NCBI GenBank assembly: GCA_001599355.1
Contig: BCGQ01000002.1
Coordinates: 1,129,554 to 1,193,553 of the forward strand
Direction: 5' to 3'
DNA: 64,000 nucleotides
DNA from: Nakazawaea peltata
Taxonomy: Eukaryota > Ascomycota > Pichiomycetes > Alaninales > Pachysolenaceae
The notes beneath the pieces are model-generated. The model was not told the origin of the DNA. It did no database searches and saw only the letters and a program-made list of their open reading frames with translations. This document shows positions 12,290 to 55,262 of the stretch, piece after piece. Positions within the stretch are counted from its first letter, which is position 1. Each line of letters starts with the position of its first letter. The translations under genes and the position numbers were made by a program.

Positions 12290-14782
12290 ATGCCATCTCA
12301 TGCCATTGATATCCCAATCACCGACCTAGATGACCCAGAAAATGATATCATTTTGGATGCTACCGACCTGTCTGACCTGTTGAGTCTAGACTATGAGCTT
12401 GATAACGCCAGCCTCAATCTTGGACCTAATGAAACAGATGAGACATTGGCTTCGAAATTGCGGACATCAGTGACGCGGATATTCACTGCTGGAGCTGCTA
12501 GGTATCATCGGTTTGACCGCGTGCCAGCTAGTAATAGTATAGAATTACAGGACAGAAATGTGTTCAGAGTTGGAGAGGAAGATGAAGAGGAGGATGATGA
12601 TGAGTATTATGATGAGTATATAAGACGGACATTATCGATTCTTAATGGGCCTGGATCGGGGAAACGTACTAGGCGCTTCAAAAAGGGGAGTCCCCTCAGT
12701 ATTTTTATGATTTCTTCGGTGTGTCTTATCATTATTCTTCTTATAGTATTGATTGTTAGATCATTCTTACCGAAATCGTCTTCATCGGGCTCATTTAAAG
12801 CTCTGAACAAGTCTAAGAAGCGTTTACTTTCCAACGGGACTCATGAGTTTCATCCTACGACACTTGTGATCTCACTTGATGGGTTTCATCCCCATTATAT
12901 TGACTCAGAATTGACGCCTTATTTGCATCAGCTCTTCCTTCAAGGTTCTGGGGCTCCATATATGATTCCGTCATTCCCTTCATCCACGTTCCCTAACCAT
13001 TGGACTCTTGTGACTGGTTTATATCCTAGTCAGCATGGAATTGTGGGGAACACCTTCTACGATCCGGTATTGAAGAAGGAGTTTGTTAATACTAAACCTG
13101 AGATCAGTTTAAATCCTGAATGGTGGGGAGGTGAACCGATCTGGCAGACTGCTACATTACAAGGGGTGAATTCGGCAATTCATATGTGGCCAGGAAGTGA
13201 AGTACCTTTTAAAGTACAGCCAATGGTGGTAGATCCATTCAATAAGACGGAGTTACTTTCGGTGAAAAGAGACCGTGTATTTGAATGGATAGATGAGGGA
13301 GATTTGAGTCTGAGACCTGAGTTGATTCTCTCGTATGTCCCAACAGTAGATTCGTATGGTCATAAATATGGGATAGGAGACGATTTGGATGAGGCCTTAA
13401 GTTATGTAGACACGTATATTGGTGAGATTTTTGAGGGCCTTGGAGAACGTAACTTATCCGATATAGTCAATGTGATGATACTCTCTGATCATGGAATGGC
13501 TCCTACATCGAATGATCGGGTTATTATCTTGGATGATATCGTCGATGTGAGCAAAATTGAGTATATTGATGGCTGGCCATTATTCGGTTTAAGACCATAC
13601 CTGAAATACTCTGTAGAGGATGTGTTTGAAGAAATCAAACAGAGTGTGAAGGGGATTTCCGACTCTGAAAAGAAGTTTGACATTTATTTGGAGTCTGAGT
13701 TACCTGAAGAATGGAATTTCGGGGGTTCTACACCTTCTAAATACTCTTCTCGTTTGGCCCCAATCTGGATAGTACCTAGATTGGGATATTCAATAATTAA
13801 GAAGGAAGAATGGGAGAAGAATGGTCATGAATATAATCCAAAGGGAGTTCATGGGTATAATAATACTGAGGTATTAATGAGGGCTCTCTTTATTGGTTCT
13901 GGTCCGTTCTTCAAGGAGGCTCTCCCCTCTAATTCTATTGAGGGTAAGTTGTCTAAAGTGACTCCATTCCCTAACACTGAAGTTTATAATATTATTTGTG
14001 ATACTTTGGATCTTACTCCACTGTCGAATAATGGTACTAGATATTATACGTCAGATCAAGAGTTTGAGTCTTATATTAATGGTAAGAACGTTTTGGGAGA
14101 TGATTGGAAGGATCCGTTTAATTATCCCGGAGTGTCATTTACTGAGAATGTCGATATTATGAGGGAGAAGCTGACGTATGATATTATGTATAGGGATGGT
14201 AAGGAAGTGGTGAGTGAACCGGAGACTGAACCGGAGACTGAACCGGAGACTGAGACATTACCGGAGGGTGAAACTGAGACCGAGCCAGAGACGTTGCCAG
14301 AGGGTGAAGCTGAACAGGAGACTGAGCCGGAGACTGAGCCGGAGATCGGCTCTGATGCTGGCTCCGATACTGACTCCGATTCTGACTCTGATTCTAACTC
14401 TGACTCCGAATCTGATTTTGACTCCGATTTTAACTCTGGTTTTGACTCCGATTCTCATCCCCCAATGAATAACCCAGGATCCCCTGATGGCCATAGAGGA
14501 AAAGGCCATTTCGGTCCTCCTGATCATTCAGGTCCTCCTGATAACACCGACCGTCCAGATCATTTCACTCCCCCAGACAACCCAAACATTCCCAAGAAAC
14601 CCCACCATAGAGGTAAAGACAACGGTGGTAAAACAAGACCCGATTCCCCATCAGATGAGGGCTCTTCCGGTATCCTTGATTCCTTAAACGATCTACTTGA
14701 AGACCTCGATGAAGCCCTCGATGAGGCTGTTGACTCAATTGAAGACGCATTCGATGATCTCATGGATGGAAATCATAAATAA
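12290..14782 (+). CDS. NPP1: Nucleotide pyrophosphatase/phosphodiesterase (NPP1/NPP2 type)
   Basis: 830 residues from the first ATG (an in-frame TTG lies just upstream). It is a type II membrane protein: an acidic cytosolic tail, one membrane segment (about 134-160) and a luminal or extracellular type I phosphodiesterase domain. The catalytic Thr lies in SSTFPNHWTLVTG (about 232). Metal ligands are visible in ISLDGFHP, SYVPTVDSYGHKYG, LSDHGMAP and KGVHGYNN. Yeast Npp1/Npp2 hydrolyse extracellular nucleotides and are induced by phosphate starvation; I see no Pho4 box here. After the domain comes an unusual tail of about 200 residues: Glu/Thr/Pro repeats, an Asp/Ser run, then Pro/His/Asp-rich sequence. 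Its neighbour SLM5 is also next to NPP1 in S. cerevisiae. The paralogue symbol is uncertain. Confidence 0.87.
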   Translation: MPSHAIDIPITDLDDPENDIILDATDLSDLLSLDYELDNASLNLGPNETDETLASKLRTSVTRIFTAGAARYHRFDRVPASNSIELQDRNVFRVGEEDEEEDDDEYYDEYIRRTLSILNGPGSGKRTRRFKKGSPLSIFMISSVCLIIILLIVLIVRSFLPKSSSSGSFKALNKSKKRLLSNGTHEFHPTTLVISLDGFHPHYIDSELTPYLHQLFLQGSGAPYMIPSFPSSTFPNHWTLVTGLYPSQHGIVGNTFYDPVLKKEFVNTKPEISLNPEWWGGEPIWQTATLQGVNSAIHMWPGSEVPFKVQPMVVDPFNKTELLSVKRDRVFEWIDEGDLSLRPELILSYVPTVDSYGHKYGIGDDLDEALSYVDTYIGEIFEGLGERNLSDIVNVMILSDHGMAPTSNDRVIILDDIVDVSKIEYIDGWPLFGLRPYLKYSVEDVFEEIKQSVKGISDSEKKFDIYLESELPEEWNFGGSTPSKYSSRLAPIWIVPRLGYSIIKKEEWEKNGHEYNPKGVHGYNNTEVLMRALFIGSGPFFKEALPSNSIEGKLSKVTPFPNTEVYNIICDTLDLTPLSNNGTRYYTSDQEFESYINGKNVLGDDWKDPFNYPGVSFTENVDIMREKLTYDIMYRDGKEVVSEPETEPETEPETETLPEGETETEPETLPEGEAEQETEPETEPEIGSDAGSDTDSDSDSDSNSDSESDFDSDFNSGFDSDSHPPMNNPGSPDGHRGKGHFGPPDHSGPPDNTDRPDHFTPPDNPNIPKKPHHRGKDNGGKTRPDSPSDEGSSGILDSLNDLLEDLDEALDEAVDSIEDAFDDLMDGNHK
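14205..14460 (+). repeat. Coding tandem repeats, Glu-Pro-Glu-Thr and Asp-Ser
   Basis: Within the NPP gene, imperfect 12-base units encode repeated PETE, then 6-base units encode repeated DS. This is the usual source of a variable-length low-complexity stalk or tail. Confidence 0.8.
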
Positions 14783-14846: not shown

Positions 14847-16289
14847 TTAGTAAGCACAACTCTGAGCATGTCTAGGGAATGGAATCACATCTCTGATGTT
14901 CTCTATATTAGCCAAATAACAAATTAATCTCTCGAAACCCATTCCGAATCCTCCATGAGGAACAGACCCGTTCTCTCTAAGACTCAAATACCACAGAATA
15001 TCCTCTGGATTCTCCATCTCATCCATAGCTTTCTTCAAAGTATCGTAGTCGTGTTCTCTAAGAGATCCACCAATCAACTCTCCAATATCAGGCAAGAGCA
15101 AGTCGTAACATGCCACAGTCTTACCGTCTGGATTCAATCTCATGTAGAAAGGTTTCAACAGTTTAGGATAATCAGTGACTGCGACTGGAGATTTGAAATA
15201 TTCTCCGGCAAGCCATTTTTCATGCTCAGATTGTAATGACAGACCCCATTGAGGTTCAAATTGGAATGAAACCTTGCCCAGAGAAACCAGATCTTGTAAA
15301 ATATCAACCAGCTCGGTGTAAGTGATATTTGGCCAACTTTCAAGGCTGACGAGAGACTCCCATCTGCTCTTGATAAGCAGCAGTTCTTCCGGGTCTCTCT
15401 TACTTTGAAGAAGATCATTAGTTTGTTCTTCATTGGCAAGTAATTCACGGACTACATGTTTAATCATCAGTTCTGAGAAGCGAGTCAACTGATGGACATC
15501 ATCAATAAAACTCATTTCCAGCTCAAGCATCCAGAATTCACTCAAATGACGATTGGTGTCACTCTCTTCCGCACGGAAACATGGAGATAAAGTCCAACAT
15601 CTTCCAAGAGCCAGAGCTAAGACTTCAAGATGCAATTGAGTACTGACAGTCAAGTACAGATCTTTACCGAAGAAAGGTTGGATATCTGTATCCTTTTTAC
15701 TATTAGCAGCTCTCAGAGCTTCTACGGAGGCACTTTCAATTCTAAATAATTCCCCGGCTCCTTCACAATCACTACTGGTGATCAACGGAGGAGAAGTTTT
15801 GGTGAAACTTTGCTGGTCGAAGAAACGAACAAGGGACAGTTCTAAAGCCGATCTAAATCTCAAAACAGATGACAAAGTAGTAGTCTTCCATCTCAAATTT
15901 GGAATAGTACGTAAAAATTGTAAACTATGTGACTTCTTTTGTAATGGATAATTCTCTGGGACTTGGCCTAAGATTCTCAACTTCTCAGATTCGGTCAGTT
16001 TCAACTCGAATTGTTGACCCTTTCCCTTCGATTCGACAAACAATCCTTCTAATTCGATAGAAACTCCGGTATTCAACTTCAGTCCCATATCTGGAGCGAC
16101 TACACACATCAAAGATTGCAGTGTAGTCCCGTCGTTAAGATCGACAAACAGGATCTTCTTCTGGACTCTTACAGATTTGACCCATCCTTGAACTTTCAAT
16201 GGTGAATTTGGAGCTGGAGGCTGTGAAAACACCTGTTTAAGGCATTTGGGAAGTCCTGTCGAGTATTGGCGTACACTAATTCTGAACAT
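14847..16289 (-). CDS. SLM5: Mitochondrial asparaginyl-tRNA synthetase
   Basis: 480 residues. It charges mitochondrial tRNA-Asn. An N-terminal presequence-like stretch (MFRISVRQYSTGLPKCLKQV) precedes an OB-fold anticodon-binding domain (about 30-110) and a class II catalytic domain. Motif 2 is FRAEESDTNRHLSEFW (238-253) and motif 3 is GMGFERL (about 449-455). Residue 257, in the stretch MLE-x-EMSF, is a CTG codon at a position that is Ala in human NARS2, fitting CTG=Ala. Only 64 bases separate its stop from that of NPP, so the convergent 3' ends probably overlap. The cytosolic form (DED81) is 5 kb away. Confidence 0.93.
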   Translation of the reverse strand: MFRISVRQYSTGLPKCLKQVFSQPPAPNSPLKVQGWVKSVRVQKKILFVDLNDGTTLQSLMCVVAPDMGLKLNTGVSIELEGLFVESKGKGQQFELKLTESEKLRILGQVPENYPLQKKSHSLQFLRTIPNLRWKTTTLSSVLRFRSALELSLVRFFDQQSFTKTSPPLITSSDCEGAGELFRIESASVEALRAANSKKDTDIQPFFGKDLYLTVSTQLHLEVLALALGRCWTLSPCFRAEESDTNRHLSEFWMLELEMSFIDDVHQLTRFSELMIKHVVRELLANEEQTNDLLQSKRDPEELLLIKSRWESLVSLESWPNITYTELVDILQDLVSLGKVSFQFEPQWGLSLQSEHEKWLAGEYFKSPVAVTDYPKLLKPFYMRLNPDGKTVACYDLLLPDIGELIGGSLREHDYDTLKKAMDEMENPEDILWYLSLRENGSVPHGGFGMGFERLICYLANIENIRDVIPFPRHAQSCAY

Positions 16290-18380: not shown

Positions 18381-20423
18381 TTAGTAAGATCTACCAAACA
18401 TACAGTATTGAATAGCTGGCTTGTCACACTTGACACACTTTTGGTTAGGTTTCAATTCTGGTTGGTCGAATGGAATACATAACGATTTGGCACCCATACT
18501 TGGAGATTTTTCATCCACTTCTTCATCTTCTCCATCGTCTTTCTTAGCGGACGAGTCCTTGATGTCGTCTTCACAGTCTCCATCACCACACCATGGCAGT
18601 AAGATGACGTTCTTCTTGTTCAAAGTTGGTACAAAGTCCTTCCATTCTTCAACAACGACTCTGTGAGTGTCGAACTTCTCCTTAGCAGCATCGTACAAAG
18701 CCTGTTGCATTTCTTCCAGGATTTCTGGAACTCTGGTGGCAGCATCGGCAATTGGGACCTCGTATTTTTGTCCGTTATCACGACGAACAACGACGAATTG
18801 GTTCTTAGCCAAATCCTTTGGACCCAACTCAATTCTAAGTGGGATACCCTTCAACTCAGAATCACTGAATTTCCAACCTGGAGAGTAGTTGTCACGGAAA
18901 TCGGTGGTGACTCTGACGTCGGCAGCAGTCAAAGTGGATTGAAGATCCTTACAAGCATCATAGATCAGTTTCTCTTGTTCAGAAGAGGTCTTGACAGTCA
19001 AACCAACAGGAATGATGACGACTTGATCTTGAGCAACTCTTGGAGGAATGACCAAACCCTTGTTATCGGAGTGGATCATAACCATAACACCAATAACTCT
19101 GGTAGACAAACCCCAAGAGTTTTGCCAAGCGAAAAGTTTAGGCTTATCAGCACCTTCTGGGTTCTCAACGGAGATGTTGAACATCTTGGAGAAGTTTTGA
19201 CCCAAGAAATGAGATGTAGCACCTTGGATACCTCTACCAGTAGTTGGGATATAACCCTCACAAGTAGTGGTGAAAACACCACCGGCGAACTTCTCGTTCT
19301 CGGTCTTCTTACCCTTGATAACTGGGACAGCCAATAACTCTTCATAAACACCAGCGTACAAATCCAAGATTTGTAAAACTTCCTCTTGCAGTAACTCGGA
19401 AGTCAAGTGCAGAGTGTGACCTTCTTGCCATAAGAATTCTCTGGTTCTCAAGAATGGTTGAGGATGCTTGAACTCCCATCTAACGACCGAGTTCCATTGG
19501 TTCAACTTCAAAGGCAAATCACGATGAGATCTGATCCATTTGGCATAGTATGGATACATGACAGTCTCGGAAGTTGGTCTAATGGCAATTGGTTCTTCCA
19601 AATCAGAAGATCCAGCCTTAGTAACCCAAGCGACTTCTGGAGCGAAGCCTTCAATGTGGTCCTTTTCTCTCTCCAAAACCTTAGAAGAAACGAACATTGG
19701 GAAGTAAGAGTTCTTGACACCCAACTTCTTAATTCCAGCATCGAACCATTTTTGGATTTGTTCCCAAATGGCATAAGATGGAGGTCTTAAAATGTAACAA
19801 CCAGAGACGTCATAGTAGTCCAACATCTCACCTTTGGTCAAGATCTGAGAGTACCAACCCGGGAAGTCCAAGTCCTTATCTACGGTGATACCGATCAACT
19901 TGGCGTCGTCCAATTTAGCGGAAGAAGAGGCCGCTTGAGGAGCAGCCAGTTTCTTAGCTGGAGCAGCTGGAGCAGAAGCAACAGCGGTGAAATCAACTGG
20001 AATGATCTCAATACCAGTGGATTCCAAAAAGGCGACTAAATCTTTCAGAGAAAGAGCAGCTTTAGAAGATTCGGTAGACAAGACCAAAGAACCCTCAGTG
20101 GCCTTGATTTGTTCGTCCAAAAGAATCTTGATCTTACCCAGATGAGAAGCGTTCAAGCTGGCGACGGAGAATTCCTTAGGAGAGGTGGCGAAGAATTGTT
20201 GAACCAAGTCCTCATTAGCCAAACGAGGTTCCTTAACACTGGCCAGTTTGGCAATAGCTCCACCTGGAGTCTGAGTAGCGCTTAAAGCGACGACGACGAC
20301 TGGGACTGGAGTAGCGGTCTTAGCAGTCTTTGGTTTGAAGACCAAGGTCTTAACAGCGGCGGCGCTGCTGTCCTCTGGGACCACGGCCAACGACAACAGA
20401 GCAAGCGAGGCTTCTAATGACAT
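18381..20423 (-). CDS. Cytosolic prolyl-tRNA synthetase (YHR020W orthologue)
   Basis: 680 residues, about the length of S. cerevisiae YHR020W. It charges tRNA-Pro. An N-terminal extension with a degenerate editing-type region (about 1-170) is followed by the eukaryote/archaeal-type class II core: YYDVSGCYILRPPSYAIW, motif 2 around RPTSETVMYPYYAKW, FLRTREFLWQEGHT, and GRGIQGATSH. The Cys-containing C-terminus ends in CMFGRSY, as in the family. Two CTG codons in the stretch after QEGHT align with Ala in yeast YHR020W. ProRS, DED81 and ARG4 lie in the same order and orientation as YHR020W, YHR019C and YHR018C. Confidence 0.95.
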   Translation of the reverse strand: MSLEASLALLSLAVVPEDSSAAAVKTLVFKPKTAKTATPVPVVVVALSATQTPGGAIAKLASVKEPRLANEDLVQQFFATSPKEFSVASLNASHLGKIKILLDEQIKATEGSLVLSTESSKAALSLKDLVAFLESTGIEIIPVDFTAVASAPAAPAKKLAAPQAASSSAKLDDAKLIGITVDKDLDFPGWYSQILTKGEMLDYYDVSGCYILRPPSYAIWEQIQKWFDAGIKKLGVKNSYFPMFVSSKVLEREKDHIEGFAPEVAWVTKAGSSDLEEPIAIRPTSETVMYPYYAKWIRSHRDLPLKLNQWNSVVRWEFKHPQPFLRTREFLWQEGHTLHLTSELLQEEVLQILDLYAGVYEELLAVPVIKGKKTENEKFAGGVFTTTCEGYIPTTGRGIQGATSHFLGQNFSKMFNISVENPEGADKPKLFAWQNSWGLSTRVIGVMVMIHSDNKGLVIPPRVAQDQVVIIPVGLTVKTSSEQEKLIYDACKDLQSTLTAADVRVTTDFRDNYSPGWKFSDSELKGIPLRIELGPKDLAKNQFVVVRRDNGQKYEVPIADAATRVPEILEEMQQALYDAAKEKFDTHRVVVEEWKDFVPTLNKKNVILLPWCGDGDCEDDIKDSSAKKDDGEDEEVDEKSPSMGAKSLCIPFDQPELKPNQKCVKCDKPAIQYCMFGRSY

Positions 20424-23580: not shown

Positions 23581-24975
23581 ATGAGTGGTAAAAAAGCTGA
23601 ACTGAGATTGTGGGGTGGCCGTTTCACCGGAGCAAGTGATCCTTTGATGGACCTTTACAATGCCTCTTTACCTTACGATAAGAGAATGTACGATGCCGAC
23701 TTGACAGGTACTAAAGTATACACTGAAGGTTTGGAGAAGTTGGGATTGCTTACCAAGGAGGAACTTTCAGAGGTTCACCGTGGTTTGGAAGTCATCAGAG
23801 AGGAATGGAAGCTGGGTACTTTCGAAGAGAAACCTGCTGATGAAGATATTCATACTCTGAATGAAAGAAGATTAGGAGAGATCATCGGCAAGCATATTGC
23901 TGGTAAAGTTCATACTGGTAGATCCAGAAATGACCAGGTTGCTACTGATATGAGAATTTATGTTCGTGAGGAATTGACTAAATTATCTCAATTCTTGAAA
24001 GACTTGATTTTGATCATTGTCAAGCGTGCCGAAACTGAGATGGATGTCTTAATGCCAGGTTATACCCATTTACAAAGACTGCAACCTATCAGATGGTCTC
24101 ATTGGTTGAGTATGTATCTGACTTACTTCACCGAGGACTACGATAGATTACAACAAGTCAGAGCCAGATTGAACAAATCCCCATTGGGATGTGGTGCTCT
24201 TGCTGGTCATCCTTACGGAATCGATAGAGAACATCTTCTGCAAGGATTGGGATTCGAAGGTATCATTGGAAACTCTCTTGTTGCTGTCAGTGACCGTGAC
24301 TTTGTCGTTGAAGTCATGTTCTGGTCTACTTTGTTCATGAACCACATCTCCAGATTCTCTGAGGATTTGATTTTGTACTCTACTCTGGAGTTTGGATTCA
24401 TTCAATTGGCCGACCTGTATTCTACCGGCTCCTCTTTAATGCCACAAAAGAAGAATCTGGATTCTTTGGAGTTGTTAAGAGGTAAGAGTGGTAGAGTTTT
24501 CGGTTCTCTTTCTGGATTTTTGATGTCTTTGAAGGGTATTCCTTCTTCTTACGACAAGGATTTACAAGAGGACAAAGAGCCATTATTTGACTCCTTGACT
24601 ACTGTTGAACATTCCATCTTGATTGCCTCTGGTGTCATCTCCACATTGAAAATCAACAAGGAGAAGATGGAGCTGGCTTTAACTATGGATATGTTGCTGA
24701 CCGATTTGGCCGATTATTTAGTTAGAAAAGGTGTTCCATTCAGAGAAACTCATCATATTTCTGGTGAGTGTGTCAGAGTTGCTGAGGAATTGAAATTGTC
24801 CGGTATCGATAAATTGTCCTTGCTGCAATTCCAAGAAATCGATTCTAGATTCTTGGAAGATGTCAAGGATGTATTTGACTTTGAGGTCAGTGTCGAAAGA
24901 AGAGATGCCATTGGAGGTACTCTGAAATCTGCAGTTTTGTTGCAATTGTCGAGTATTAAGAAGGCTCTTGAGTAG
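23581..24975 (+). CDS. ARG4: Argininosuccinate lyase
   Basis: 464 residues from the first ATG ([15 protein letters not shown]). It cleaves argininosuccinate to arginine and fumarate, the last step of arginine synthesis. Family signatures are intact: [13 protein letters not shown], the catalytic-loop [10 protein letters not shown] (about 283-292) and [10 protein letters not shown]. This gene gives the clearest proof of the genetic code. CTG codons at 23857, 24079, 24118, 24238, 24385, 24415, 24457, 24673, 24697 and 24922 all align with Ala in S. cerevisiae Arg4, in otherwise near-identical stretches such as LQR-x-QPIRWSHW. It is regulated through Gcn4 and, in S. cerevisiae, through Arg81, also in this window. 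Confidence 0.97.
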
Positions 24976-27036: not shown

Positions 27037-27851
27037 TGAATAAATGTATCATAAGAAGTTTCAAGTAATGAAAAGCGTCAAGATGAAAAGCACTCACTAA
27101 ATAATGGAGGAGAACCAGGAGGATGGCGGACCAACAGGAGAACTGGAAAGGGAAAGGTAACCGAAAGGGTTCTCACTGTATATAAAAGGGATAAAGGGGA
27201 AATGGTGGAAAAATAAAGGGAAGCAGGAAGAAAAAGGAATGTAAAGGGGTGACAGGAAGAGGGCACCGGAAGAAGACACACGTAAAGGGGTAATAGTAGA
27301 TCGCACAAGGTGTCAGATGGATGAGAGGATGTCCGGGAACGGATGAGTGGAGAGACTGAGCGAGAGATAGTGATGACAAATTGGCCTCTGTGCCAGGCTG
27401 CTCTTTATCAGGTGCCGCTTTATCAGACTCCCCTCTATCGGGCACCCCTTTAGTTAACTTCCCCTCTTTAGCTTCCCCTCCATTAGTTAGTCTTTTGTGA
27501 GCTTAATGATTAGTGTTCTTCCCCGCTGTAAGCTTACTAATTTTACCTTCCCCTCATCACATGCGACTAAACTCAACTGTAACCCCCTTTAAAATCCCCC
27601 TTTACAGCTCCCCCTTTACAGCTCCCCCTTTACAGCTCCCCCTTTAAAATTCCCCTATAAAATCCCTTCCTAACCCCCTTTTTCCTTCTGATTTTCCCTC
27701 TTCTCTTACGTCAACGCGCATGGTGTAACGATGTAAACCCCTTATCGCGCGGGACAAAGTTGCCTCGCGAAAATTTTTCCTTAATGACGTGGAATTAGTT
27801 AAGAGAAGTTAGTGAAGAACAAGTTAGTGAAGTTAGTGAAGTTGCTCAAAA
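27037..27851. promoter_or_regulatory. BFA1 3' flank and GDA1 promoter (815 bases)
   Basis: No gene seen. The region is strongly strand-asymmetric: purine-rich up to about 27330, then pyrimidine-rich. It includes the 14-bp repeat block at 27583-27650, a GAAAATTTTTC box at 27769-27779 and AAGTTAGTGA repeats at 27806-27841 directly before the ATG. Confidence 0.55.
27583..27650. repeat. 14-bp tandem repeat block with matching ends
   Basis: Three perfect units of CCCCCTTTACAGCT (27596-27637) are flanked on both sides by CCCCCTTTAAAAT. It lies 200 bases upstream of GDA1. Confidence 0.9.
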
Positions 27852-42425: not shown

Positions 42426-43541
42426 TTAAGAGTCAGACAAGATACCCCAGTACTTCTCGACACCGTATTGACCATCGGCCTTCCAGTAGTCGTTGAAAGC
42501 AGTGTAGACAATAGCATCGTTACCACAAGATTCCTTGATAGAAGCGATAGCAGCCTTTTGGTTAGACTTGGATGGGACGGCGACACCGTAGGTCTCACCT
42601 TGAGATGGCCAACCGGTCTCGGTGATGAAGACGTTCTTGTCACCGCTACAAGCGTTCCAGACTCTTTGGATTTGTTCAAGAACCCATTCACCAGCCTCAT
42701 CGTAAGTGGTGTAACCGTCAAAGTAAGCGTGAGCGTTAACAGCCATGTAGTCAGAGATGGAACATAAACCTGGGTTGTTGATGACAGCAATGAAAGTGTC
42801 AACAGAGACGACACTACCGGTGTAACCAGCAGCAGTCAAGTAAGATCTACCGGACTCAACGTAAGAAGCAACTTGAGAAACAGTGGCCTCACCAGAGTTA
42901 ACTAATTCGTTACCGATGGAAACAGTGTAAACATCGTCCCAAGAACCGTAAGATTCAATAGCAGAAGCCATGGTTTGGATACCGGACTCAATTTGGTCGA
43001 CGTAGTAGATACCAAGGAACAATTTTTGGCCGTCCAGCTTAGCTTGCAAAACGTTAGCAACTTGGTTACAGTCGACACCGTATAATCTGATAACCTCGTA
43101 GTCGGACAATTGAGCCAAGTCTTCTTGGACGGCAGAAAGGTCCTTACAAGCACCAGAAGCGGTGTATGGAGAGTAAGTGATACCCTTGGCACCAGCACCG
43201 AAAGAACCAGAGTCGGAAGAGCTGGTGGAAGTAGCCTCGGAAGTGGCAATGGAGGTGGAGCTGATGGAAGTGGTAGCGGTCAAAGAGGTGGTGTCGGCAA
43301 CTGGAGTGTCAACCTCGATGGCAGAAGTGGTGGTGGAGTAAGAGGTAGCTGGAGTTCCAACAGAGGAAGTAGAAGTTGGAGCGGCACCGGCTTGGTTACC
43401 GTAAACAGTGACCAAAGTGGTACGGGTGACAACGTGAACAGCTCTCTTCTCGTGTTGGTGGTGGACATGCTCGATTGGCGAGGCCAAGACGGCAGAGGCC
43501 ATGGTCAGAGCAGCAACGATAGTCTTCAAGTTAAGTTGCAT
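42426..43541 (-). CDS. SCW4: Cell-wall glucanase of the SCW4/SCW10/MP65 family (GH17)
   Basis: 371 residues from the first ATG (an in-frame TTG lies 12 bases upstream). It is a secreted cell-wall protein acting on beta-1,3-glucan. A signal peptide (about 1-20, ending near SAVLAS) is followed by a short propeptide ending in HEKR, a Kex2 site. A Ser/Thr-rich stretch covers about 35-110, then the GH17 domain with Glu residues in VSIGNELVNSGEA and VFITETGWPSQGETYG. The C-terminal half is nearly identical in motif to Scw4 (VSVDTFIAVINNPG, YMAVNAHAYFDG, YGVEKYWGIL). The gene counts as the single ancestor of SCW4 and SCW10. It has a strong codon bias, so probably high expression. Confidence 0.94.
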   Translation of the reverse strand: MQLNLKTIVAALTMASAVLASPIEHVHHQHEKRAVHVVTRTTLVTVYGNQAGAAPTSTSSVGTPATSYSTTTSAIEVDTPVADTTSLTATTSISSTSIATSEATSTSSSDSGSFGAGAKGITYSPYTASGACKDLSAVQEDLAQLSDYEVIRLYGVDCNQVANVLQAKLDGQKLFLGIYYVDQIESGIQTMASAIESYGSWDDVYTVSIGNELVNSGEATVSQVASYVESGRSYLTAAGYTGSVVSVDTFIAVINNPGLCSISDYMAVNAHAYFDGYTTYDEAGEWVLEQIQRVWNACSGDKNVFITETGWPSQGETYGVAVPSKSNQKAAIASIKESCGNDAIVYTAFNDYWKADGQYGVEKYWGILSDS

Positions 43542-43950
43542 CTTAATAAACAATGAATGAACGGACTTGATGGGAATAGATTTTTATATGGTAAAATTGG
43601 GAATAACGAGTGAAGTTTGGTCTAGACGAAATAATATCACGAAATAGTTGAAACGAATTAACTATCTGGTATAAAGGAATGGACGATACTTATTTCAATG
43701 AACCAATAAATTTGTTGAGGAGTAGCAAATTGAGTTGATTTCCAAGGATATTCTTGGATATATAAACAAAAGTTGTTGTTGTTGGAGATTACAAGGGAAA
43801 AGGGCAAGAAAGTGGGAGATATGCGGGAGAAAGGGGCACGAGTGTGAAAATTTTTCGTAAGCGCAGAGGAATATGTGGGCAGATTGGGGTGGGAAACACA
43901 TATTTTTTACAACACCATCGAAATATGTTTTTTTATGGGTGTGTTTCAGG

Positions 43951-43969
43951 TAAACAGATTTCCTGTTTA
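43951..43969. promoter_or_regulatory. Inverted TAAACAG pair (forkhead-type)
   Basis: TAAACAG and CTGTTTA with a 5-base spacer; the left arm lies in GGTAAACAG, matching the forkhead core GTAAACA. It is about 410 bases upstream of the glucanase gene. S. cerevisiae cell-wall glucanase genes are cell-cycle regulated; the link is inference. Confidence 0.45.
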
Positions 43970-44411
43970 GGAAAGAAGCATACAACTTTATTACATTTTG
44001 TTTTCCCTGTTGAGTAAGAAATATACAGTTTGTGGCCAAGACTAAGTATGTGAGACGAATCAGTGGGTTGGGAGGACTTGGCGAGGGAATATTGACTGAA
44101 AGGAGGAGTGGGAGTATCCGAGGATTGAGGAGGAATTGGTAGTGAGGGAGAGATGAAAATTGGGATATGTGGATGGAGAGAGGTGGTGATCTAGAAGTTG
44201 TGAGCGGAGGGCAGTGAACAAGAGACACTGAACCAGAGACAGTGACAGTTAAGTAGGACTTTGAATCATCTTATACATTCTGTACAGCTAGAGTCTGTCT
44301 AATCTAGTTCACCTTCAATTAATTCTGATTATAGTGATGTCATCCCGTCATTCCCGATATTACCCCTATCTTCAAACATCTGCGTCAACTAAGCCCAACT
44401 TTAATGCTTGA

Positions 44412-44426
44412 GACGTCATATAAAAT
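44412..44426 (+). promoter_or_regulatory. CRE-like site plus TATA box without a gene
   Basis: GACGTCA touches TATAAAAT. The nearest gene in this direction, MMS4, starts over 1.2 kb away, too far for its own TATA box. Confidence 0.4.
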
Positions 44427-44558
44427 AAATCAAACCTACAATTGAATCAATTTATCTACTACAAAAACCCTCTTTCTTAAAGTCTAGACTACTTTTTTGC
44501 TTTCTTCTGCTTATACTGACATAATATATAGGTCTTCATCGTACCTAATACGTTGTAT

Positions 44559-44620
44559 GTAGAGTAGTGTACTGTAGAGTACTGTGAAGTGTACTGTAAA
44601 GTACTGCGTAGTGTGCTGCA
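44559..44620. repeat. Degenerate GTACTGTA/AGAGTA tandem repeat
   Basis: About five imperfect units of roughly 10-13 bases (GTGTACTGTAGAGTACTGTG type). Confidence 0.6.
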
Positions 44621-45576
44621 GCTCGCAATCGTTCTGCGCTCGTACCGTAATTTTTATGTGCCCACCCATATTTTTCCTACGCTTTAGTCCCGAGAAGCCC
44701 AATTATTCGACAAAGAGATCTGGAGGTGGCTCAGTACGGAATATGCCCCTGAGTCGGTGAGGCGATTTGGGACTGGGAACTGACGGGACCATTTTTAAGG
44801 TTAATTGCACTCAATCAGCAATTGGACCGTGTCACTGCTTCCCGCACCTGTCAAACCAATATCTGGAGTCAGACACTATTCTCCAAGTTGATCTGCTGTT
44901 TTGTTTGATCTTGAGTCTATGATTTGAGGATTTGCCTCATATGTTTTTCCCACTGTTTTTACTAGGTGCTTGTGTGTTTTGCCTCTATTTTCCCTGCTAT
45001 TTTGTGTTTTCCCTACGTTTTTTGTGTTTTTTGTTTATATTTTCATCTCTTTGTTTCAGTCTTGTTTACTTTTTCTTATCCAGACTTTTTTCGTAGGGCC
45101 TGTTTTTCTCAGTCTCACTCAGCCTAAACAGATTTTATTACTGTGGATCAGACCGCAAGAGACTCGATTTCCGATTTTTAAATCGATGAATAAAGTTCTT
45201 CCTTAGTCACTGTAGCAATTTAAGGTTACATGTGCCGATTATTATTCTTGCTGTGATTAATTAAACTTATGATTCTATGCATTTGTTAGGTAGCCTCAAT
45301 TTAGAGAAATATATAGTTTAGATCTGGGCTATTAAATGAATTACTTGGGTGTGGAATGCTTTATTGGAATTTATTGTGTTTCCATTGGTTCAGCTGATTC
45401 CACTGTCTCAACTCCTTAACCTCCTCCTCCCCTTCTCAGCCCTCTGTTACACTGTCTTCCTCTCTCTTGACCTGCCTACCCCTACCGTGTCTACCCTCTG
45501 TTAGCCTGACCTGTCCCACCTTAAAAGTATCCCTTTCTTACTATAAACAAATAACTCTTTATGGACGTTTGAGATT

Positions 45577-45585
45577 CACACGACC
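45577..45585 (-). promoter_or_regulatory. Near-match to RGTCGTGYA in MMS4 promoter
   Basis: CACACGACC, one mismatch, 93 bases before the MMS4 ATG. Confidence 0.4.
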
Positions 45586-45660
45586 TTTTCCGTCTTCGCG
45601 TCAAATCAACTTTTTAAGTCTCATCTCAAGTCATATTGCCTCCTCATATCAAGCATATCC

Positions 45661-45681
45661 ATGCCAAATCTCATCATATGA
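45661..45681 (+). other. Upstream ORF overlapping the MMS4 start
   Basis: An ATG at 45661 opens a 6-codon frame (MPNLII) whose TGA overlaps the MMS4 ATG as ATGA. If transcripts start upstream of 45661, ribosomes meet this frame first. Confidence 0.5.
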
Positions 45682-48755: not shown

Positions 48756-49325
48756 ATGTCAGCAAAGAAAGAAAACAACCCTATGTCGTTATCGCTGGTA
48801 ACTGGAGATCTGAGTGACGTTACCACGAAACTCCCTCCCATTACCGTACTGCCCCACCCGAAAAAAGATGCCGACTCCCATAATGGGGGTGATTCAGGAG
48901 CAGACCAACTGCAAATAAATCTGGAACTGCTGCTGGCTCTGCTGCAAGATGGTCAACTGGTAGAACCTCAGTTCTATGGTCAGCATGTCCCTGGCTCGAA
49001 GGAATGGCATCTGATGAGAAAAATTAACCACAAGGAAGTCGAGAGAAGACGTCGTGAGAGTATTAACATTGGGATCAAAGAGCTCCTGCAATTGTTACCT
49101 CATCCAGAGCAAAATAAACTGCGCGTCATCCGTAATGCGGTAGAATACATTAAGCGGTTGAAGGAAAATGAGGATAATAATATTGAGAAATGGACATTGG
49201 AGAAGTTGTTGACTGATCAGCTGGTCAGTGAGTTGGCTACGTCTAATGAGAAGTTGAAACAGGAGTTGGAGAAGCTGTATAGAGAGATTGAGCATTGGAA
49301 GAAGATTGCTAGTAATAAGAAGTGA
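48756..49325 (+). CDS. CBF1: Centromere-binding factor 1 (bHLH-leucine zipper)
   Basis: 189 residues, against 351 in S. cerevisiae; the shortening is all N-terminal. Cbf1 binds CACGTG, at centromeres and in promoters of sulfur and other genes. The basic region is HKEVERRRRESINIGIKELL (about 98-117), with the E and R residues that read CACGTG. Helix 2 is RVIRNAVEYIKRLKENEDN, and a zipper runs through LLTDQLVSELATSNEKLKQ. The motif NIEKWTLEKLL is specific for Cbf1. Neighbouring NTA1 and an MNN4-like gene match YJR060W-YJR062C. Confidence 0.93.
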   Translation: MSAKKENNPMSLSLVTGDLSDVTTKLPPITVLPHPKKDADSHNGGDSGADQLQINLELLLALLQDGQLVEPQFYGQHVPGSKEWHLMRKINHKEVERRRRESINIGIKELLQLLPHPEQNKLRVIRNAVEYIKRLKENEDNNIEKWTLEKLLTDQLVSELATSNEKLKQELEKLYREIEHWKKIASNKK

Positions 49326-50782: not shown

Positions 50783-53380
50783 TCATTTATTATCATCAGC
50801 TACTTTCTCCCCTGTAGGCTGATCCGCAAGGTCCAGGATAGGATCACGTAATTCCAGCTCTAATTTCAATTCCAAATCTTCATCTGTAAGAAACTCATTA
50901 GGAACAACACCGCCATTACGGATCTCCTGTCTAAATATAAACATATCCTTCGATAATGGATCGAAATTGCTGGCCAAAATGTTCTGACGTACAAACTCCT
51001 GGTATCCATTAGCATTATTAGACATAAGTTCGAGTTCTTGCTGGTGTAATTTTGTGATCTCATGAGTCAAATAATACTCTTTCATGATGGTTTCATGCTT
51101 GAATAACTTGAGTAACATTTGCTCATCCAAATCCTTGATCAACAGCATTACTTTGGACATGGTAACACGGTTGGTCCTAGAGGGTCTTTTACCTGATTTC
51201 AGGTAACTCAGTTCCATCTCTTCCTTTAAGACATCATGAAGAGTATCGAATGGAATCCATAACCTCAATTGGGGAATATACACATGTTTATTGAAGGTCT
51301 GGACGGTCATTCCTCTGGTATACTCCAGCTTTAAAATGTCTTGGAATTTGTTTGGGATCAAAGTCTTGGTCCCCTCGATCAAAGAGACCCTCATTGGACT
51401 CAACTCATCAAATAAATAGAAGTGATTATTCCTACAATTATACAGTTTCAATGACATGTTTTCCAGAAGACGCATCGAGACACCTTTCAGTGACAGTTCT
51501 TTCAGTTTACGTCCACTTCCACCACTCCTTTGAGCCAGATCTTTCTTCTCGGCTCTCATTTGATCTACAATGGAATTGACTTTACCAGGATTAAGCAACT
51601 TCTTGTATCTATCACTGATTTGAGTGTTGGTCAAACTAAGACCGGTGATATCGATATAGAAACCACTGTCGATGTCGATGAATCTTCCGTCGATGTTGTT
51701 ACGACCATTTCCCTTGACCCTATGTGTCATATACGAACTACAGTCTACATAAAATTTACCGAACCCTTGATCGATCGGTTCCACTATCAAACTGTTGTTG
51801 AACATCAAAGAGAAGCGATCCAATTCCATGATGGGCATCTGGACATCGATGTCAACGTCCCAAGGGAACGAGATTCCATCCCAGTACCATGACAACAAAC
51901 TTCCATGCAGAATCCAGGTGATAATATTAGTTTTATAGGTGAATTGTAACCAAGATTTCAATAAACGGTGTAAAATGATACGTTTCTTCTCGGCCACGTC
52001 GTCTAATTCGTTTTCTTTGCTTACGGAGATGAACCCGTTGAAGAATCTCCAGTCGAAATGAGCTCCACTCTCTTGGACCCTTGTTCTAGTTCCTTTATTC
52101 CCACTGATTCCAATCTCACGGAAGTGTTTTTGTAATTTTAAGCCGGAGATTGAGGAGGAATATTTCAACAGAGAGTAATGGGAGATCTCTTTCGAATGGA
52201 GAGGTATTCCATTGGAGATTCTGGAGTCGTAGTCTCTCAAAATCGAGTCATATTCGTACGAGAATGAAGACTCATTCAAGTTGATAAGAGCTTGATGATC
52301 TTCCATGATGATTTCATCAAGAGATTGGTCTCCGAGTCGATGAGAAGGAACGGAGATCTGAAGATCACGGTACTCGAGAAGAGGATCCAAAATTACCGGA
52401 TCGTCAGACTCGGGAGCGACGTTTTTACGGCTAAGAAAGGCCTCTATCAATGGAGATTGACTCAATCTTTGGCGAGAATTCTCGGTGAACACCTCATAAT
52501 ATCCTGTGCTAGTTAAAAATACAATCGATTTGGGCAGCTCAAACTCAGAGTAAAGGAATGATCTCAGGTGGAGCTTCTTTTGGTCCCAAGTGTTCTTTGG
52601 ACCTGGCAGAATCACATGGAATCCTGGCCAATATTCGGGCACTTCAGAGACTCCCTTCCGTTTCAGATAATCTTCATCTGAAAGACAGTACTCTGAATGG
52701 TCAGATTTGGTAGCAGACTCACGCTGACGACGACGGCCGGCTCTTTTGGGCTGAGTCTCATCTTGAGACGGCAATTTATTGAACATCTCAGCGCATAATT
52801 TCAGTTTCTTCTCAGCTGGTTTCCTCATATGCTGATTCAAGATGGAAAGATCGGTCCAGTCCGACCAATGGAACGGAATATACACTTTTTTGTCCTCGTC
52901 GATCATATCCTGGTCATTCTGAGGGTTCTTGGCTTGGAATTCATGGTGTAAATAGTTAAGAACAACGGCCATAGTGTACCGAGGGTCGTAATTGTTGTAT
53001 TTCTGAGGTCTAAGAAGCTGGCTCAGTGGGATTTGTAAAGCTGTATTGTATAACCTGTTCTGCAACCTCCAATATTTGGGGTCAGATGGGTCAACATCCT
53101 TGACAGCATCGTCCAAATACTCATAAAACACTTCTTCTTCATGTTTAGAACTGAACCACGACTTGACGAAGGTTCTCAGTTTCTGAAAATCGAGATTCTC
53201 CAACTGCTGTAAGATAACTGAATCTTCTTTGAACAGTTTGGCTCGGTCGTTTCCTGATAAGAGGAAGGAATAGAGGGAGATTGAACAGAGTTGGAAGAAG
53301 ATGAGGGTTAAGAGGATGATTAGACATCTTGAACGTCTTGGTATTAGTACCAAATGACGTGGGAGTGTGTATTTTGGCAT
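50783..53380 (-). CDS. Mnn4-like protein (LicD family), YJR061W by position
   Basis: 865 residues from MPKYTLPRH; the frame runs 22 codons further upstream only with a TTG start. It is a type II Golgi-type protein: short basic cytosolic tail, membrane anchor at about 19-42, luminal part. The LicD/fukutin domain (about 485-640) has WILHGSLLSWYWDG and WDVDIDVQM, with the Asp pattern proposed to bind metal and nucleotide-sugar. Mnn4 is required for mannosylphosphate on yeast N-glycans. Its place next to NTA1 and CBF1 matches YJR061W, the Mnn4 paralogue of unknown role. The Lys/Glu repeat tail of S. cerevisiae Mnn4 is absent. Confidence 0.88.
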   Translation of the reverse strand: MPKYTLPRHLVLIPRRSRCLIILLTLIFFQLCSISLYSFLLSGNDRAKLFKEDSVILQQLENLDFQKLRTFVKSWFSSKHEEEVFYEYLDDAVKDVDPSDPKYWRLQNRLYNTALQIPLSQLLRPQKYNNYDPRYTMAVVLNYLHHEFQAKNPQNDQDMIDEDKKVYIPFHWSDWTDLSILNQHMRKPAEKKLKLCAEMFNKLPSQDETQPKRAGRRRQRESATKSDHSEYCLSDEDYLKRKGVSEVPEYWPGFHVILPGPKNTWDQKKLHLRSFLYSEFELPKSIVFLTSTGYYEVFTENSRQRLSQSPLIEAFLSRKNVAPESDDPVILDPLLEYRDLQISVPSHRLGDQSLDEIIMEDHQALINLNESSFSYEYDSILRDYDSRISNGIPLHSKEISHYSLLKYSSSISGLKLQKHFREIGISGNKGTRTRVQESGAHFDWRFFNGFISVSKENELDDVAEKKRIILHRLLKSWLQFTYKTNIITWILHGSLLSWYWDGISFPWDVDIDVQMPIMELDRFSLMFNNSLIVEPIDQGFGKFYVDCSSYMTHRVKGNGRNNIDGRFIDIDSGFYIDITGLSLTNTQISDRYKKLLNPGKVNSIVDQMRAEKKDLAQRSGGSGRKLKELSLKGVSMRLLENMSLKLYNCRNNHFYLFDELSPMRVSLIEGTKTLIPNKFQDILKLEYTRGMTVQTFNKHVYIPQLRLWIPFDTLHDVLKEEMELSYLKSGKRPSRTNRVTMSKVMLLIKDLDEQMLLKLFKHETIMKEYYLTHEITKLHQQELELMSNNANGYQEFVRQNILASNFDPLSKDMFIFRQEIRNGGVVPNEFLTDEDLELKLELELRDPILDLADQPTGEKVADDNK

Positions 53381-54614: not shown

Positions 54615-55262
54615 CTAAATAGACTCAATTCTCTTCTTGGCCTTAATATACGTCGGCTCCTTCGCAATATCACCAAGCCAACGATTAATATTAGGATAAT
54701 CCTTAGTATTAATCAGGACACGACCGCCATTTCTAAGAAATACAGCTTCAAGAGGCATAGAAAGCATGATATCGGCTGCTGTAGGAGCAACATCCGACCC
54801 AAAGAATCTCGAAGACTCAAGCTTGGACTCAAGATATTTCATGTTCAACTCAAATTCCGGCATATAATACAGATTACTGATCCCATTAACAACTTTGCTT
54901 CCAATAAATTTGACAGCCCAAGGAAGTCGGGTACTTGTCATATGGAGGACAAGGAGCGCAACTAAGATCGGTTGAAGGGTTCCCTCTGTATAATGAAGGT
55001 AGTAATCATCATCTTGAGAAGTTGATTTACCAGCCTGTTTAAGTAAATATTGGAATATAAATCCACTTTCGGCTAAGATTTCCCCATTTTCAAGCTCAAT
55101 CAATGGGGATTTGCCTAGAGGATGGATTTTTTTCAATGCTTCCGGCAGTCTAAAATTTCCGTCACGTTTGTACGTTTTCATTTGGTATTCTAATCCTAAC
55201 CATTCCAAAAGCCAAACGACTCTGGAGGCTCTACTTTCGTTCAAGAAGTGAAGTGTTAACAT
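54615..55262 (-). CDS. GTT1: Glutathione S-transferase Gtt1
   Basis: 215 residues. The N-terminal thioredoxin fold carries LNESRASRVVWLLEWLGLEY and KKIHPLGKSPLIE, then ILAESGFIFQYLLK, where the conserved Glu-Ser binds the glutathione gamma-glutamyl group. A helical C-terminal domain follows. The residue after NFR is coded by CTG and is Ala in S. cerevisiae Gtt1 (NFRAP). In S. cerevisiae Gtt1 is ER-associated and stress-induced. GTT1 and LYS1 are near neighbours there (YIR038C, YIR034C) and 8 kb apart here. Confidence 0.92.
   Translation of the reverse strand: MLTLHFLNESRASRVVWLLEWLGLEYQMKTYKRDGNFRLPEALKKIHPLGKSPLIELENGEILAESGFIFQYLLKQAGKSTSQDDDYYLHYTEGTLQPILVALLVLHMTSTRLPWAVKFIGSKVVNGISNLYYMPEFELNMKYLESKLESSRFFGSDVAPTAADIMLSMPLEAVFLRNGGRVLINTKDYPNINRWLGDIAKEPTYIKAKKRIESI

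Follow-up and report, generated by a model that had tools for sequence, protein, structure and literature searches.

Alanine as the very probable meaning of CTG codons in a 64-kb stretch of budding-yeast nuclear DNA

The window, by which we mean the whole 64-kb stretch of DNA that was analysed, is gene-dense and yeast-like with a G+C content of 41.4%, and is very probably nuclear budding-yeast DNA in which CUG is translated as alanine (translation table 26), most likely from the CUG-Ala clade (Alaninales, Pachysolenaceae). The alanine reading had been proposed in an earlier note on this DNA, and it was supported by a wide margin in a masked test on nine genes, in which the 49 other codons with at least ten aligned sites kept their standard meaning. 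A nuclear CUG-Ala code is described in PMC5951914 for one clade, comprising Pachysolen, Nakazawaea and Peterozyma, to which NCBI taxonomy gives the order Alaninales and the family Pachysolenaceae, and we infer membership of that clade because the code is described for it only. There is a slim chance that the DNA comes from a yeast outside these three genera, in which CUG was captured by a tRNA-Ala independently a further time.

For the masked test, CTG was translated as X to avoid circularity, and ten proteins were searched against solved structures. FES1, with no solved homologue, was dropped, and the following nine genes were usable:

14847..16289, minus strand: SLM5, mitochondrial-type asparaginyl-tRNA synthetase, 18 CTG codons
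18381..20423, minus strand: prolyl-tRNA synthetase (ProRS), 10 CTG codons
21438..23090, plus strand: DED81, cytosolic asparaginyl-tRNA synthetase, 10 CTG codons
23581..24975, plus strand: ARG4, argininosuccinate lyase, 464 aa, 13 CTG codons
30050..32131, plus strand: UTR1, NAD kinase, 17 CTG codons
32621..36853, plus strand: UBP15 (USP7-like protease), 32 CTG codons
39684..41672, plus strand: CWC22 splicing factor, 26 CTG codons
55435..57174, minus strand: PRP39, 14 CTG codons
63384..63821, minus strand: C-terminal part of LYS1 (saccharopine dehydrogenase), 5 CTG codons

Residue log-odds were summed for each codon over the aligned columns, an idea taken from Codetta as presented in PMC8629427 and applied here with simple profiles of our own. 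Four genes (ARG4, DED81, ProRS and SLM5) were aligned by tblastn to bacterial homologues as well, the loci used being 14 of 15 for SLM5, 7 of 7 for ProRS, 7 of 19 for DED81 and 33 of 33 for ARG4 (three from another search, and the best 30 of a search that matched 131 of 149 genomes). A plasmid search with ARG4 gave matches in 309 records, all below 60% identity, which were not used. Two of the five solved homologues listed served for ARG4, for DED81 and for ProRS (C-terminal ends omitted), and a single one for UTR1 (of four), SLM5 (of three), LYS1 (of two), PRP39 (of two; first domain), UBP15 (of two; two of five aligned domains) and CWC22 (of three; end omitted). Several of the omitted structures are near-copies of those used; those that are not near-copies are 5xil and 6mn8 (ProRS), 5zg8 and 1x54 (SLM5), 9l5s and 8xi2 (CWC22) and 6g70 (PRP39). 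The solved chains, listed by molecule name only, are presumably from human, duck, Brugia, S. pombe and S. cerevisiae.

The nine genes contain 145 CTG codons, of which 93 fall in alignable columns. Over these 93 sites alanine scored 47.7 bits, serine −24.7, glutamine −69.3 and leucine −120.9, which places alanine 72 bits ahead of serine and 169 bits ahead of leucine. Alanine ranked first in 1999 of 2000 bootstrap samples over CTG sites (serine in one) and after the omission of any single gene. The control was provided by the other codons: among the 50 with at least ten sites, CTG was the sole departure from the standard code, and the smallest correct margin was that of GTG, for which valine led isoleucine by 1.7 bits; other residues were also returned by AGC (6 sites), TGC (6) and CGC (1), all with fewer than ten sites. 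When one homologue per gene was taken, the residue opposite CTG was alanine at 31 of 90 sites, serine at 11 and leucine at 3; for comparison, GCN codons face alanine in 54 of 131 cases, and other leucine codons face leucine in 55% of 353 sites.

Conserved columns, defined as those with at least 80% of one residue among three or more homologues, point the same way. Eleven of them contain a CTG codon, and alanine is the conserved residue in eight (ARG4 codons 167, 373 and 448; DED81 295 and 398; ProRS 338 and 345; SLM5 327), proline in two (ARG4 293 and SLM5 257) and leucine in one (ProRS 569), with serine in none. The earlier note had named many conserved CTG positions occupied by leucine or serine as the observation that would speak against it, and this pattern was not seen. 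Other leucine codons in conserved columns face leucine in 44 of 50 cases and alanine in none, a contrast with CTG that is significant for alanine (Fisher p = 6e-8). Among the conserved columns listed, which covered eight residue kinds, GCN codons face alanine in 18 of 25 and serine codons face serine in 17 of 37.

ARG4 illustrates both the strength of this evidence and its exceptions. Its CTG codons are located as follows:

23602, 23812, 23857, 24079, 24118, 24238 and 24385, plus strand: first seven CTG codons of ARG4
24415, 24457, 24673, 24697, 24823 and 24922, plus strand: last six CTG codons of ARG4

Ten of these had been put forward as positions where yeast Arg4 carries alanine, and all ten are indeed in-frame CTG codons; the ones at 23602, 23812 and 24823 had been passed over. 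No yeast Arg4 was seen among the 39 solved sequences listed by molecule name. The best-matching solved lyase, 1aos, which we take to be human argininosuccinate lyase, has alanine at six of the ten sites (codons 93, 167, 180, 279, 373 and 448). Alanine is found in all 33 bacterial lyases at codon 167 (24079), in 13 of 13 at codon 373 (24697) and in 26 of 33 at codon 220. At codons 269, 293 and 365 it is not the commonest residue in solved or bacterial lyases, and codon 293 (24457), where proline is found in both sets (32 of 33 bacteria), counts against the alanine reading. Leucine stands opposite none of the 13 codons in the two vertebrate sequences used, and is absent at all 13 from the bacterial residues listed, up to six of the commonest per site.

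The synthetases give a similar picture. The alanine columns of ProRS are codons 338 (19412-19410) and 345 (19391-19389), and at the position assigned earlier to alanine within QEGHT-x-H, six of seven bacteria and the two solved homologues used have alanine; codon 569 (18717-18719, minus strand) counts against alanine, with leucine in six of seven bacterial and in all five listed solved homologues, and represents a Leu-to-Ala change that was tolerated or else a relic site. DED81 has its alanine columns at codons 295 (22320) and 398 (22629); the alanine claimed within HIE-x-EL is matched by the two animal sequences used but not by the bacteria, all seven of which have proline. Codon 327 of SLM5 (15311-15309) faces alanine in 14 of 14 bacterial homologues, and two other codons of this gene count against alanine, codon 257 (proline in 14 of 14 bacteria) and codon 226 (methionine or leucine in 14 of 14).

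When the genes were scored singly, alanine came first in seven of the nine, while threonine and serine ranked higher in UTR1, and serine and glutamate in UBP15. CWC22 gave alanine 13.0, serine 6.4 and leucine −20.0 bits over 16 aligned CTG sites, and PRP39 gave alanine 0.5 and leucine −4.1 bits over nine. Both exceptions count against alanine, UTR1 with threonine at 5.3, serine 3.6, alanine 1.6 and leucine −12.4 bits, and UBP15 with serine at 3.6, glutamate −0.8, alanine −1.4 and leucine −12.4 bits over 11 sites. Two CTG codons of UTR1 do face alanine, codons 409 (31274, GST-x-YSL) and 461 (31430); of the two motifs cited earlier for this gene, the solved NAD kinase has alanine in GST-x-Y but glycine in x-DGLI. 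The five CTG codons of LYS1 stand opposite A, A, A, A and K (alanine in four of five) in the solved saccharopine dehydrogenase 3ugk, presumably S. cerevisiae Lys1, and the alanine reported within VDVS-x-DTTNP is that of the solved enzyme. The GTT1 codon in NFR-x-P is a CTG at 55148, and the PIC2 codon in PAE-x is a CTG at 12-14, a short way before the ATG at 27.

Proteins were also scored against Pfam under tables 26 (Ala), 12 (Ser) and 1 (Leu). Ten proteins with 20 families gave sums of 2335.7 bits for alanine, 2300.5 for serine and 2234.6 for leucine, the best reading being alanine in 15 families, serine in three and leucine in two; ten further proteins with 12 families gave 1519.7, 1502.2 and 1489.6 bits, respectively, with alanine best in seven, leucine in three and serine in two. 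Pooled over the 32 families, alanine leads serine by 53 bits and leucine by 131. The five of 20 and five of 12 families in which alanine is not best count against it. These sums exclude overlapping families (UCH_1, other WD40 models, GST_N_2, GST_N_3, UBA_7 and Rad60-SLD) as well as tRNA_edit, which was unlisted under table 12; LYS1 matched no Pfam family at the cut-off used.

Ambiguous decoding, with CTG mostly alanine and partly another residue, is very improbable. Its support comes from a mixture fit in which the residues opposite CTG were described as a blend of the Ala-codon profile and other profiles, and which favoured some serine (0.27, range 0.08-0.48) over the pure alanine profile; but glutamine (0.19, 0.06-0.35) and lysine (0.17, 0.03-0.34) were favoured too, with leucine at 0.03 (0-0.12), and the fit concerns sites, not decoding. 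Since the unrelated glutamine and lysine fit as serine does, the result suggests that CTG sites are somewhat less conserved than GCN sites rather than that decoding is mixed. The serine component was accordingly rejected as a sign of ambiguity, and it is more likely that CTG codons sit at somewhat less conserved positions than GCN codons. For Pachysolen tannophilus, more than 99% alanine at CUG is given in PMC8645108, where an earlier report of 10% leucine is called mistaken.

A serine meaning of CTG, known from the Candida (Ser1) and the Ascoidea/Saccharomycopsis (Ser2) clades, is scarcely credible. Serine is the second-best meaning, it stands opposite 11 of the 90 CTG codons, and it outscores alanine in four of the first 20 Pfam families; against it stand its deficit in the column test, its absence from the 11 conserved columns and the abundance of CTG in this DNA. 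The weakest reading is the standard one, with leucine at CTG and the alanine matches due to chance or to selective reading: apart from ProRS codon 569, the ten of 13 ARG4 codons given earlier and the five of 32 Pfam families best read with leucine, all of which it could claim, it lies 169 bits behind alanine and would leave leucine opposite CTG far rarer than opposite other leucine codons. The column test excludes leucine for the bulk of CTG sites, and both leucine and serine are excluded as the general meaning of the codon.

Codon usage was determined on 30 chosen ORFs of at least 145 aa, out of 38 ORFs of at least 100 aa; eight short ORFs that overlap or lie beside larger genes were omitted. 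CTG accounts for 382 of the 16,380 codons (23.3 per thousand, stops counted), or about one in 43, and when read as alanine it is the commonest of five alanine codons with 34% of the total (CTG 382, GCT 377, GCC 211, GCA 104 and GCG 41). All three stop codons terminate the counted ORFs (TAA 14, TAG 8, TGA 8), a further likeness to the CUG-Ala code of Alaninales. The CTG share of alanine per gene ranges from 0.05 in a GH17-family protein (42426-43541), through 0.14 in ProRS, 0.20 in DED81 and 0.59 in CWC22, to 0.70 in an HLH factor (48756-49325), as if highly expressed genes avoided the reassigned codon. Across the 30 genes this share is only weakly related to codon bias (Spearman −0.30, p = 0.11; against the GGT share of glycine −0.35, p = 0.06). 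An origin of CTG-Ala sites from codons one step away (Gln, Arg, Met, Leu) gave no significant signal (16:25 vs 11:27, p = 0.48).

Several other features of the window were recorded. The NPP1-like gene at 12290-14782, encoding a phosphodiesterase/nucleotide pyrophosphatase family protein, has tandem repeats with units of 12, 18 and 36 bases at 14215-14455, in a tail rich in Glu/Thr/Pro and Ser/Asp. A large LicD-family protein with 22 CTG codons is encoded at 50783-53380 (minus strand) and resembles Mnn4; gene names without a family or structure match (e.g. CBF1, MNN4, NPP1) denote likenesses. The intergenic tandem repeats at 767-803 and 27583-27666 have units with a common CCCCCTTT core. Between chosen ORFs, the 2.1 kb at 43542-45677 have a G+C content of 39%, two short tandem repeats and no Rfam match at gathering thresholds.

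As to mechanism, the literature suggests that CUG would be read by a tRNA-Ala whose anticodon was changed to CAG, the former tRNA-Leu(CAG) having presumably been lost. Such a capture could work because alanyl-tRNA synthetase needs no particular anticodon bases; it and seryl-tRNA synthetase are named in PMC5951914 as the only two synthetases of this kind, and the same paper describes, for Ala-clade species, a novel CAG-anticodon tRNA that arose when the anticodon of a tRNA-Ala gene mutated. Within the 64-kb window, neither ARAGORN, with or without introns, nor Rfam at gathering thresholds detected a tRNA gene.

It is very rare for a sense codon of the nuclear code to pass to another amino acid, the yeast CUG codon being the standard example, and the CUG-Ala code was described in 2016-2018. 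The finding of CTG as alanine is real, correctly interpreted and already known; it is important for the annotation of this genome and no surprise to a specialist. With the standard table, all 382 CTG codons of the 30 ORFs are translated as leucine, and such mistranslation spoils alignments, structure prediction and gene expression in a standard host.

Among known systems, the CUG-Ser1 code (Candida, Serinales; table 12) reassigns the same codon in budding yeast, with alanine here in place of serine, and the CUG-Ser2 code (Ascoidea, Saccharomycopsis) is likewise a budding-yeast reassignment of CUG. CTG is described as avoided in Serinales and Ascoideales in PMC11540330, whereas it is abundant in the window, and PMC5951914 reports few CUG codons in the conserved genes of Ser2 species, with serine as the product. 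For Ascoidea rubescens, alanine at CUG according to PMC5499181 is contradicted by the serine seen in mass spectrometry in PMC5951914. When Codetta was applied to 462 yeast species, the outcome for 453 of them agreed with how the meanings of CUG were known to be distributed, as given in PMC8629427. The G+C content of the window is close to the 42.3% listed for N. ambrosiae in Table 2 of PMC10106607, G+C content alone being weak evidence of species. No difference from the CUG-Ala code of Alaninales was found, and the likeness to that code (table 26; Pachysolen tannophilus, Nakazawaea, Peterozyma) lies in CTG codons that face conserved alanine beside 49 other codons, each with at least ten sites, that keep their standard meaning.
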